Part shown: positions 2,555 to 16,125 of the stretch, piece after piece
How positions within the stretch are numbered: the first letter of the stretch is position 1
Layout of the letters: every line of letters begins with the position of its first letter
NCBI GenBank assembly: GCA_947627465.1
Contig: CANQWD010000013.1
Coordinates: 1-64,000, forward strand
DNA: 64,000 nt
Direction of reading: 5' to 3'
Origin: an uncultured Clostridia bacterium
Lineage (GTDB): Bacteria; Bacillota; Clostridia; Oscillospirales; Ruminococcaceae
Translations under genes and position numbers: made by a program
Notes under the pieces: model-generated
What the model was told of the DNA's origin: nothing
Database searches by the model: none
The model's input: the letters and a program-made list of their open reading frames with translations, nothing else

Positions 2555-3058
2555 ATGGCGACGGGAAAACAAATACAACGGATATACGCGCTGGGAGCAA
2601 AATGCGGGCTGTTGGATCGCGAGCGCGGTAACGACGATGATCTGCATTTATGGATAAAACAGTGGTCGCGAAAAGATCACATTTCAGAGCTTACCGAAAA
2701 GCAAGCGGATTTTATTATCGCTCGGCTAATCGATTATCAAAACAACGTATGCCCGCCAAAGCCCGCTGATATTGAGCCGATAACGGGAGCACAGCAAAGC
2801 TTTTGTTTTCGGTTAACATATAAGCTGGCGCAGGTTTCCCCCTCGGAGATCGATGTGCGCGAACGTCTTCGCGGGCTTATTTGCAAGGTCACCAACAGAA
2901 ACATTCAAACGGACGGAGATATTTTTTATAAGGTGACGCGCAATGAGGGTACACAGATAATCGAAATGCTGAAAAGGATAATCCGCTCTGAGGAGCGCAA
3001 AAAGAAACGGGGTGAGAAAAATGGGACTGGCACAGCTGGTAAAACTCAGCCACCTTAA
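2555..3058 (+). CDS. GemA-like regulatory protein (DUF1018)
   Basis: MATGKQIQRIYALGAKCGL...DHISELTEKQADFIIARL...ITGAQQSFCFRL typical of Mu GemA family. Confidence 0.75.
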   Translation: MATGKQIQRIYALGAKCGLLDRERGNDDDLHLWIKQWSRKDHISELTEKQADFIIARLIDYQNNVCPPKPADIEPITGAQQSFCFRLTYKLAQVSPSEIDVRERLRGLICKVTNRNIQTDGDIFYKVTRNEGTQIIEMLKRIIRSEERKKKRGEKNGTGTAGKTQPP

Positions 3059-3281
3059 TGCTGAGCAGCAGGAAATTGTTGATATAATTGGTATGGATTG
3101 TTATCGTGATCTTATTGAAAAATTTGGAGGAGACAGGATTTACATACCGAAAGCAAAAAGCCTTATTCCCGCCTCAGAGTTGGCACATGAAATTCGGCTC
3201 AGGCGGCAGAACGGCGATAGGAATGAACAGATAGCACACGACCTTGAAATTCCGTTCGCCGATGTGCGAAAAATAAAATAA
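3012..3281 (+). CDS. Mor transcription activator family protein
   Basis: IVDIIGMDCYRDLIEKFGGDRIYIPKAKSL...LRRQNGDRNEQIAHDLEIPFADVRKIK; Mor/C family layout; initiation probably at an internal Met (MGLAQL). Confidence 0.75.
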   Translation: MRKMGLAQLVKLSHLNAEQQEIVDIIGMDCYRDLIEKFGGDRIYIPKAKSLIPASELAHEIRLRRQNGDRNEQIAHDLEIPFADVRKIK

Positions 3282-3286
3282 TTTTT

Positions 3287-3313
3287 CCCTCGGTTTAAAG
3301 CCGAGGGTTTTTC
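3287..3313 (+). terminator. Intrinsic terminator after mor-like gene
   Basis: CCCTCGG tttaaag CCGAGGG followed by TTTTT. Confidence 0.8.
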
Positions 3314-3338
3314 TGTCATTATTTTATGGCGCTGAAAA

Positions 3339-3384
3339 TTACCGTAAATCTTTGGTGTACAAAAAATATTTTTAATGGTATAAT
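3339..3384 (+). promoter_or_regulatory. Candidate Mor-dependent middle promoter
   Basis: TATAAT at 3379-3384 without -35 consensus; small dyad (t)tACC-N10-GGTgta centred about -42. Confidence 0.4.
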
Positions 3385-3416
3385 GAAAAAAACAAAACCG
3401 CAAGCGAGGTGAAATT

Positions 3417-4054: not shown

Positions 4055-4597
4055 ATGAGCAACCGGAAACACAGCAAGATCGACGCGCTGCCGTCGGATA
4101 TAAAATCGGCGGTCGAAGAAATGATACTTGGCAACTACACCTACCGCGACGTGTGCAATTTCGTTCGAGATACGGCAAACGTTACACTTTCCGAGGCGGC
4201 GGTTTGCAGATATGCTCAAGGGCTTAACGCCACGGTGCAGGATCTGCGTTTGGCAAGTGAGAATATGCGCACGCTCACCGAGGAAATGGCGAAATATCCG
4301 CAATTGGATACCACCGAGGGGATCGCACGTCTCGTTTCGCACAAGGTTCTGTCGGCGGTTCGGGAGCTTAGCGATGACGATTTAAAAAATTCAGACCCGC
4401 TGAAGCTTATAGATCGCTGTACGGCACTTATTCGCGCGGTCGCGTACAAAAACGAGAACGATACGCGCGTGAAAAACCTTAAAGACGTAGCGTTCGAGAG
4501 CTTTAAGGAAGAAATATTCGACGCTATGGCGAAAGAGGAGCCGGAGCTGTATAAGCAGTTGGTGCGGTTCATATCCGCTCGAAAGGACGTGGAATAA
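4055..4597 (+). CDS. DUF3486 / Mu gp27-like protein
   Basis: RKHSKIDALPSDIKSAVEEMILGNYTYRDVCNFV...LSEAAVCRYAQ pattern. Confidence 0.75.
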   Translation: MSNRKHSKIDALPSDIKSAVEEMILGNYTYRDVCNFVRDTANVTLSEAAVCRYAQGLNATVQDLRLASENMRTLTEEMAKYPQLDTTEGIARLVSHKVLSAVRELSDDDLKNSDPLKLIDRCTALIRAVAYKNENDTRVKNLKDVAFESFKEEIFDAMAKEEPELYKQLVRFISARKDVE

Positions 4598-5088
4598 TGC
4601 TGTATGTTCTGTTCGTCCAAAGCGGACGCGAGCTGACAATAATCGAGGAACTTCGGCGAAAAAATATATCCGCGTACTGTCCGCGGCAATTAAAAGCAGA
4701 ACGCCGCCGCGGACATTGGCGATATGTAGAACGTATCATCTTTACGGGGTATGTTTTCGTAGACGTTCCCGAACTTCAACCATGGGTGTGGCACACCGTG
4801 ATGAAATGCGTCGGCGCTATACGATTTATAAGCAAACTTCCTTTGCCGCCCGATGAGGACGATTATATTCGGCGGCTTTGCAATGACGGGGACTGTATCG
4901 GAATTTCACGCGGATATGTTTTGGATAATATTCTGCATATCACAAGCGGATTCCTAAAAAATCTCGAACATGAGATCATTAAATTCAATCGGCGCGGGAA
5001 ACGCGCCTCGGCGGATGTTACGATCTACGGTGAAAAACACAGAATTATTTTCTCTGTGGAATTTGACGCTCCGCCCGCATTACCGTGA
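4597..5088 (+). CDS. NusG-like (LoaP-like) transcription elongation/antitermination factor
   Basis: NGN-type MLYVLFVQSGRELTIIEELRRKNISAYCPRQ...IIFTGYVFVDV and C-terminal KOW-like segment. Confidence 0.8.
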   Translation: MLYVLFVQSGRELTIIEELRRKNISAYCPRQLKAERRRGHWRYVERIIFTGYVFVDVPELQPWVWHTVMKCVGAIRFISKLPLPPDEDDYIRRLCNDGDCIGISRGYVLDNILHITSGFLKNLEHEIIKFNRRGKRASADVTIYGEKHRIIFSVEFDAPPALP

Positions 5089-5120
5089 TAAGCTCCGGCA
5101 GTGCAAAAAATATTGTTAAA

Positions 5121-5260
5121 ACGCCTTAGATAACTTTGGCGTAATGGGCGAAGCTATACCCTCGAAAAAACGAGCCGAGAATTGCGTTTTAAGGGCTGCC
5201 AGATTTTCGAGGTATAGTTTCCCCTGTTTTTATAAAACGGTGCTCTAAAAAGGGCGTATA
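5121..5260 (+). ncRNA. Structured leader between NusG-like gene and late operon
   Basis: Stem ACGCC-N12-GGCGT (5121-5142); long stem GGGcGAAGCTATACCcTCGAAAA (5146-5168) with TTTTCGAGGTATAGTTTCCCC (5204-5224); internal CTCG-A6-CGAG. Confidence 0.55.
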
Positions 5261-5297
5261 ACGCTTAAAAAGGCATATCCGAGAACGAGGTGATGTT

Positions 5298-5756
5298 ATG
5301 AGCAGAAAAAAGAAAAGTATCGCGGCGCTGGGTGCGGCAATCGCGGAACACGAAAAAATGAATAATTCCACCTCGACCTCTGCGGTGCAGCAGCTTGTCG
5401 AGGCGTTTTTGTCCACCAATAATCCCGCGAAAAGAGCAAAGAAAATCGCCGAAATTAAATCGCGGTGCGGCGGTATCGCGGAACTGTTTGCGGAAAACAC
5501 GGAGCTGATCACCGCAGAAGTCGAACAGGCGCTCATCAGAGCGGCGACAGGCTACACCGTTACTGAACGCAGAACAAAATATGTGAACGGCGTTAAAACC
5601 GTGGAAACAATTGAAAAGCATATCGCTCCGTCACAAGCGGCAATCGAATTTTATCTTGTAAATAAAAATCCCGAGGGCTATTCAAAATCGGGCGGTACTT
5701 CCGGCGACGGAGAGGGAAAAATTGCGGAAATCGTGGAGGCGTTAAAAAATGGATAA
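5298..5756 (+). CDS. Phage terminase small subunit-like protein
   Basis: IRAATGYTVTERRTKYVNG...ETIEKHIAPSQAAIEFYLVNKNPEGYS; directly upstream of TerL. Confidence 0.7.
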   Translation: MSRKKKSIAALGAAIAEHEKMNNSTSTSAVQQLVEAFLSTNNPAKRAKKIAEIKSRCGGIAELFAENTELITAEVEQALIRAATGYTVTERRTKYVNGVKTVETIEKHIAPSQAAIEFYLVNKNPEGYSKSGGTSGDGEGKIAEIVEALKNG

Positions 5757-10382: not shown

Positions 10383-10544
10383 ATGACCGATGAAGAATTT
10401 AAGAAGCAAGCTAAAAAAATGGGGTATAGCAATGAATTCATAAAAGACACCATTGAAAACCATAATAACGACAAATTTGTCTTGCCTTATGAAAATGAAT
10501 TGCTCGGGGCAATTGATAACTACCCATGTGAAAGTAATAATTAA
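10383..10544 (+). CDS. Small protein, candidate immunity partner of the MuF zincin
   Basis: RBS ggaggtgttttttATG; MTDEEFKKQAKKMGYSNEFIKDTIENHNNDKFVLPYENELLGAIDNYPCESNN; immediately 3' of the toxin-like domain. Confidence 0.5.
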   Translation: MTDEEFKKQAKKMGYSNEFIKDTIENHNNDKFVLPYENELLGAIDNYPCESNN

Positions 10545-10577
10545 GCGTTTTGCACTCGCGTGCAAGGCGCTTTTTTC
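10543..10577 (+). terminator. Intrinsic terminator after candidate immunity gene
   Basis: AAGCGTTTTGCAC tcgc GTGCAAGGCGCTTTTTT. Confidence 0.75.
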
Positions 10578-10769: not shown

Positions 10770-10847
10770 ACCGCGCTCCGATGAGGGGCGCGTTTATTAT
10801 ACCTTGCGGGCGGCTTCCGCCCCAAATTAAATTTAGGAGGAATAATT

Positions 10848-14404: not shown

Positions 14405-14465
14405 TCAAATCATATTATCCCGCCAAACGGCGGGATAAATATTTTTACTTAAAGGAGAGATTTTC

Positions 14466-16099: not shown

Positions 16100-16125
16100 G
16101 CACCCTACCTAGTGGGGTGCTTTTA
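16100..16125 (+). terminator. Intrinsic terminator after lipoprotein gene
   Basis: GCACCC...GGGTGC followed by TTTTATTAT. Confidence 0.75.

Follow-up and report, generated by a model that had tools for sequence, protein, structure and literature searches.

A conserved ops-like leader element behind a LoaP-like nusG gene of Mu-like Clostridia phages: a candidate antitermination switch for late genes

We analysed a 64,000-nucleotide stretch of DNA from an uncultured Clostridia bacterium (hereafter the window), in which the gene for a phage NusG paralog is separated from the late genes of a Mu-like phage by a 209-nt leader (5089-5297) with no evident gene. The leader carries a composite element, in which a covarying hairpin is followed, usually after a gap of 2-3 nt, by GGCGNAGC-N(1-2)-Y-R-C-C (Table 1). 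The element co-occurs strictly with nusG across several genera and families. We consider it probable that the locus forms an operon-encoded NusG-paralog antitermination switch for the phage late genes.

Table 1. Features of the nusG-leader-late gene locus in the window.
Feature	Position	Strand	Basis or value
Mor/C-family activator gene	3012..3281	+	Pfam PF08765; phrog_836
Intrinsic terminator ending the upstream (early) unit, then TTTTTCTG	3287..3307	+	terminator scan
Candidate promoter TGTACA-17-TATAAT, extended -10 (TGGTATAAT)	3356..3384	+	position and sequence kept in 5 relatives
Phage NusG paralog, NGN and beta-barrel KOW	4597..5088	+	Pfam NusG E 5e-11; phrog_6386; NCBIfam; AlphaFold2; PDB match
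Covarying hairpin just 5' of core, candidate pause/recruitment hairpin	5121..5142	+	fold, arm swap, alignment
Long 20-bp stem, 5' arm containing the core; candidate leader terminator	5146..5224	+	-33.3 kcal/mol
ops-like core GGCGAAGCTATACCC	5147..5161	+	44/44 leaders; absent without nusG; 3/3 further records
T-run TGTTTTTAT after long stem	5225..5233	+	sequence inspection
Terminase small subunit, first gene 3' of leader	5298..5756	+	phrog_309 E 1e-10
Terminator-like site in late operon	10543..10572	+	terminator scan
Terminator-like site in late operon	10772..10792	+	terminator scan
Terminator-like site in late operon, intergenic	14415..14438	+	terminator scans
Terminator-like site in late operon	16100..16120	+	terminator scan

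The locus shares its order with relatives: gemA, mor, orf103, orf109, gp27, nusG, the leader, terS, terL and portal, as far as each locus extends and similarity is detectable. This order is fixed down to about 26-30% protein identity and spans the host genus, other genera of the family and unannotated human-gut phage contigs; in an order-level relative (G044), gp27 and nusG are adjacent. No close relative was found among the annotated phage isolates searched. Downstream of the leader, plus-strand ORFs for terS, terL, portal, a minor head protein and more extend to about 22-24 kb; the late operon is roughly 18-20 kb long. The first-pass annotation, which had described an NGN-KOW protein ending at 5088, a structured non-coding stretch of 209 nt and late genes running in one direction, is borne out on all three points. 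Two genes of the locus match PHROG terminase small subunit families, gp27 (4055-4597) matching phrog_426 and the gene after the leader phrog_309.

The window NusG protein scored highest against the NCBIfam LoaP family (NF033641), with 99.8 bits, below the curated cut-off of 125. Scores were also below the cut-offs for UpxY (35.9 bits, cut-off 100), the housekeeping NusG equivalog TIGR00922 (31.2 bits, cut-off 135.7) and the RfaH equivalog TIGR01955 (22.8 bits, cut-off 144.5). Judged by these scores, LoaP is its nearest NusG family. Because the host carries another, housekeeping-like and better-scoring NusG (G000:C3:34106-34627), and given the family scores, the window protein is a paralog. NusG-like phage proteins are already known as annotations, under PHROG 6386 'transcription antiterminator' and as BFVD entries named RfaH and NusG; PHROG 6386 was unusable for listing the phage paralogs because it also matched housekeeping NusG. 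An AlphaFold2 model based on 15 family members (pLDDT 92) shows an NGN domain and a KOW domain predicted as a beta-barrel (block pLDDT 71-92). The alpha-helical KOW of the autoinhibited, fold-switching RfaH is absent from this model, which shows one state only; since the predicted KOW is a beta-barrel, autoinhibition of the RfaH type is not indicated. The best PDB match to the predicted fold was the NusG-RNA complex 8f5g (E 9e-13, TM 0.79), with the RfaH-ops structure ranking behind (E 5e-5), and 8f5g likewise came first in a phmmer sequence search. From its title and from PMC12691694 we read 8f5g as LoaP with its RNA, and the fold comparison thus also points to LoaP. In a by-eye alignment with RfaH, the RfaH residues contacting ops were not obviously conserved in the phage protein.

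The most conserved feature of the leader, which the first-pass annotation had not named, is GGCGNAGC (5147-5154 in the window). Of 45 nusG loci sharing less than 90% protein identity, one (L006) breaks off about 12 nt past nusG and is unreadable, leaving 44 leaders. All 44 carry GGCGNAGC on the plus strand, 18-331 nt after nusG, and none carries it on the minus strand of the same 400 nt. The core positions G, G, C, G, A, G and C are invariant, C3 and G7 included, whereas the loop base is free (A in 32, G in 9, C in 3, T in 0). A Y-R step follows one base later in 32 leaders and two bases later in 12, and the CC flank is present in its strict form in 38/44. Shuffled leaders carry the extended motif in only 1.7% of cases. 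As the 44 loci are related, these counts are not independent trials, and the controls described below matter more.

The hairpin just upstream of the core, ACGCC-N12-GGCGT in the window, keeps its position and covaries among relatives. When the 45 nt preceding the core were folded, the minimum-energy structure contained a hairpin in 44/44 leaders, its 3' arm ending 0-6 nt before GGCG (mode 3). When arms were swapped between sequences, own arms gave a mean of -9.9 kcal/mol and those of other sequences -5.3 kcal/mol; 0/20000 permutations were as good, and the result held in a thinned set of 29 sequences. A model-based alignment had 92.6% of cells paired, compared with 25-55% in slid controls, and double changes in 8/8 pairs; since the structure itself guided this alignment, the swap test gives cleaner evidence for covariation. 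The sequence of the hairpin is not conserved, its loop varies in length and sequence, and there is no conserved UNCG.

The presence of the element goes with nusG, not with gp27. Of the gp27 loci that also have nusG and whose leader can be read, 18/18 carried it, whereas the extended motif was found in 0/5 gp27 loci without nusG (Fisher 3e-5); a sixth such locus, L126, was too fragmentary and was left out, and L102, which has gp27 without nusG, contains one GGCGCAGC with the flanks missing. A motif-only scan of IMG/VR with AATGGCGNAGCATACCC returned 21 stretches, and in ten of them a nusG paralog lies 90-161 nt upstream. L086 makes an eleventh case with hairpin and core, on a contig that starts just upstream; in the remaining stretches no nusG was seen, and they look like chance. 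A covariance-model search of 249 genomes gave 14 hits, nine of them following nusG and including the eight best; the other five, among the weaker ones, had no nusG in view. Because this model, built from 6 sequences, found divergent clades weakly and did not report the window, the counts for the element rest on direct inspection. Subdoligranulum records looked up afterwards had the element in 3/3 cases, and a housekeeping-type nusG locus fetched alongside was without it. At two genuine LoaP loci, the only two above the LoaP cut-off that were found, the element was absent within about 1.5 kb on either side. Covariation of the leader and its co-occurrence with NusG were the checks that the first-pass annotation had proposed for its own idea, and the swap and double-change results, together with these counts, speak for a conserved, structured cis element that accompanies the NusG paralog.

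The leader as a whole folds to -62.8 kcal/mol, compared with a mean of -49.5 kcal/mol for dinucleotide shuffles (z -3.0; 0/200 as stable); no Rfam family was found in the window. Besides the upstream hairpin, it contains the long stem pairing 5146-5168 with 5204-5224 and a CTCG-A6-CGAG hairpin at 5161-5174, the three helices lying where they had been described. The three differ in conservation. The long stem is confined to the window's own clade and is more likely a terminator than a recognition site; the window, L016 and L017 have a T-run behind it, and the close relatives L001, L018 and L049 a weak one. The window terminator is non-canonical, with a large loop, and its T-run is shared by near relatives only, so it is less certain. 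The CTCG hairpin is lost in several close relatives.

Terminators after the element are supported statistically across the leaders. Strict rules found a terminator in the 200 nt following the core for 22/44 leaders, compared with 5% of shuffles and 19/172 neighbouring coding windows; half of the leaders are without this strict form. A first scan under loose rules had separated poorly from shuffles, and the strict rules did better. The terminator-like sites within the late operon come from scans that overall gave more sites than shuffles (31 vs 18; 27 vs 17). Between the related phages L007 and L008, the loop of the leader terminator hairpin looks inverted (GGGGAAGTTACCCTAT vs ATAGGGTAACTTCCCT).

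Several leaders contain further repeated sequences. L001, L003, L005 and L018 (and L017) repeat the core region in degenerate form (GGGCGAAA...ACCC) a few dozen nt downstream of the first copy. An A/T-rich second element, which itself looks like a degenerate core region, is GGGTAATTTCAC-like in L051, L062, L067 and L081 and occurs as the reverse complement in L063, L064, L065 and L098. CGTTTAAA/CGTTTTAA repeats after the core, as in L074, L079, L088 and L098, are spaced mostly 10-11 or 20-22 nt apart and number 1.05 per leader on the plus strand, 0.39 on the minus strand and 0.09 in shuffles.

Upstream of orf103, the locus retains signs of control at initiation. The Mor/C-family gene scores 23.8 bits against Pfam Mor, just below the 24.9-bit cut-off, and matches phrog_836 'late transcriptional activator' with E 1e-7; close relatives have a Mor-like gene as well. 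The mor-orf103 gap contains a strong terminator in the window and also in L001, L016, L018, L049 and L050, and after it the window and the same five relatives have the promoter-like TTGTACA-N17-TGGTATAAT or near variants (3282-3416 in the window). Since a terminator and then a conserved promoter-like site follow mor, the nusG transcript probably starts before orf103, and the candidate promoter is likely the start of the transcript carrying nusG and the late genes. Initiation-level control by a Mor-type activator has probably been kept, and this contradicts the earlier suggestion that NusG replaces C. Repeats such as CACGCATAAAATCACG lie upstream of the candidate promoter in some relatives and may be an activator site.

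We propose the following course of events. A transcript would start before orf103, with initiation probably controlled by the Mor/C-family protein, and would yield gp27 and the NusG paralog along with two small proteins. RNA polymerase would pause in the leader at the RNA hairpin and GGCGNAGC-N(1-2)-Y-R; the end of the motif matches the G-10 Y-1 R+1 pause pattern, and the pause is predicted at T5157 (-1)/A5158 (+1) with G5148 at -10. Phage NusG would load at this pause, most likely via an exposed non-template GCGNAGC mini-hairpin, as RfaH reads ops, and the modified polymerase would then run past the terminator in the leader and those inside the late operon. LoaP is known to pass intrinsic terminators after its leader hairpin (PMC12691694), and its read-through works by antagonising NusA. 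With NusG encoded on the transcript itself, late expression would be delayed until the protein has accumulated.

We give about an even chance to the RfaH-like part of this scheme, in which phage NusG reads the core as non-template DNA. In the ops element, ops12 (GGCGGTAGCGTG) forms a non-template DNA hairpin with the pair C3:G8 and the loop G4-A7, to which RfaH is recruited (PMC5995543). DNA mini-hairpins are very stable when two G-C pairs close a GNA or GNNA loop, and GCGAAGC has a Tm of 78 C (PMC4686876). The phage core fits the GNA form, and ops reads as the GNNA form; when GCGNAGC is aligned with ops, its loop is short of one base. The invariant pair positions, the free loop base and the Y-R at the place of the G-10 Y-1 pause agree with what non-template reading would predict. 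The bare core showed no stability as DNA or RNA in ViennaRNA folding; the DNA set used there gives a GAA loop no advantage over other triloops and so cannot test the core hairpin. Two points speak against DNA reading: the likeness of the protein to LoaP, and the lack of evident counterparts to the residues with which RfaH contacts ops. The GG...CC flanks could also make a weak RNA hairpin around the core. To the complete picture, in which the LoaP-like NusG of Gram-positive Mu-like phages is recruited by an ops-like non-template mini-hairpin behind a nascent-RNA pause hairpin and switches on the late operon, we assign slightly less than an even chance.

The strongest rival is recruitment of the LoaP type, in which the NusG paralog binds emerged RNA, namely the covarying hairpin and GGCGNAGC, instead of non-template DNA, with the same antitermination outcome. 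We regard it as rather unlikely. In its favour, LoaP is the nearest family and a NusG-RNA complex the nearest fold, the upstream hairpin covaries as RNA, and the core is flanked by GG...CC. On the other hand, with its sequence unconserved the hairpin could be recognised by shape alone, it has no conserved UNCG-type loop such as that of the LoaP target (PMC12691694), the bare core has neither a stable RNA fold nor covariation, and the core is missing at two genuine LoaP loci. The original proposal that NusG acts via an RNA leader at the late operon stands in part: a conserved, structured cis element is there, and non-template DNA is considered somewhat more probable than RNA as what NusG reads.

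Other explanations dispense with NusG at the leader. Plain attenuation, in which a leader terminator or an RNA switch controls the late genes and the proximity of nusG is synteny only, would account for the enrichment of terminators in the leader, and in the window the core lies within one arm of the long stem and could pair alternatively. This overlap of core and stem was not found in other clades, and such an explanation is improbable given that the element and nusG go strictly together in several genera and families. We think it equally improbable that the leader carries a late promoter or a Mor/C binding site, with NusG acting elsewhere. Many leaders do hold the A/T-rich second element (GGGTAATTTC-like or its reverse complement) and the CGTTTAAA repeats, but no sigma-70-like plus-strand promoter scored in 5089-5297, the conserved one lies before orf103, and covariation of the RNA type is in keeping with an element that is transcribed. 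Pac sites of some phages are located before terS, and the element lies directly before this gene; Mu-like phages, however, package from the left end. That the leader is a packaging site conserved through the terminase is very improbable, because the element tracks nusG and not gp27, persists where TerS similarity to the window is undetected (e.g. L057-L059, L072, L073, L075, L076), covaries in an RNA-like way and is often followed by a terminator. Packaging and plain attenuation were both set aside on the co-occurrence with nusG.

The preferred arrangement of antiterminator gene, recruitment element, terminator and long operon is that of known NusG-paralog systems. LoaP, which acts on the dfn and mln operons of Bacillota, is the closest in family, solved fold and Gram-positive setting, and likewise combines a leader element, an intrinsic terminator and a long operon with a gene beside its target. 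It differs in that the phage protein falls below the curated cut-off, the phage operon comprises late genes rather than polyketide genes, and the phage leaders have, in place of a conserved UNCG-type hairpin, the covarying hairpin and GGCGNAGC that the two LoaP loci lack. With RfaH/ops of E. coli the likeness lies in the site: phage GGCG-N-AGC-N-YR corresponds to GGCG-GT-AGC-G-TG of ops, both fit GNA/GNNA mini-hairpins and both stand in the leader of a long operon. GGCGGTAGCGTG itself was not what the leaders carry; the related GGCGNAGC-N(1-2)-YR is present in 44/44. The phage loop is one base shorter and free, an additional covarying hairpin lies upstream, and the phage protein is far under the RfaH cut-off, with no alpha-helical KOW hairpin predicted. 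UpxY of Bacteroides capsule operons is also a NusG paralog encoded inside the operon that it controls and acts on termination in the 5' leader (PMC7819879); its leader is upstream of its own gene, whereas the phage leader is downstream of nusG. As with lambda Q and N, later genes would be expressed via an antiterminator made earlier by the phage; those proteins are unrelated, and in the phage locus the NusG homolog itself would be the antiterminator.

Among the open-access PMC papers searched, we found none that describes the phage element or a late-operon switch of this kind. How NusG paralogs encoded in their own regulated operons are recruited was stated in 2020 to be unknown (PMC7593976), and later work showed that LoaP uses an RNA hairpin (PMC12691694). 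For one NusG family, dozens of phage loci now show a cis element that is short, strictly conserved and open to testing. If the target is RNA, it would be a second kind of target for LoaP-like proteins; if it is DNA, an RfaH/ops-like mode would have been reached in another NusG lineage, through a two-part signal of RNA and DNA. On both readings, phages of gut Clostridia would regulate their virion genes at the elongation step in addition to using a Mor-type activator.
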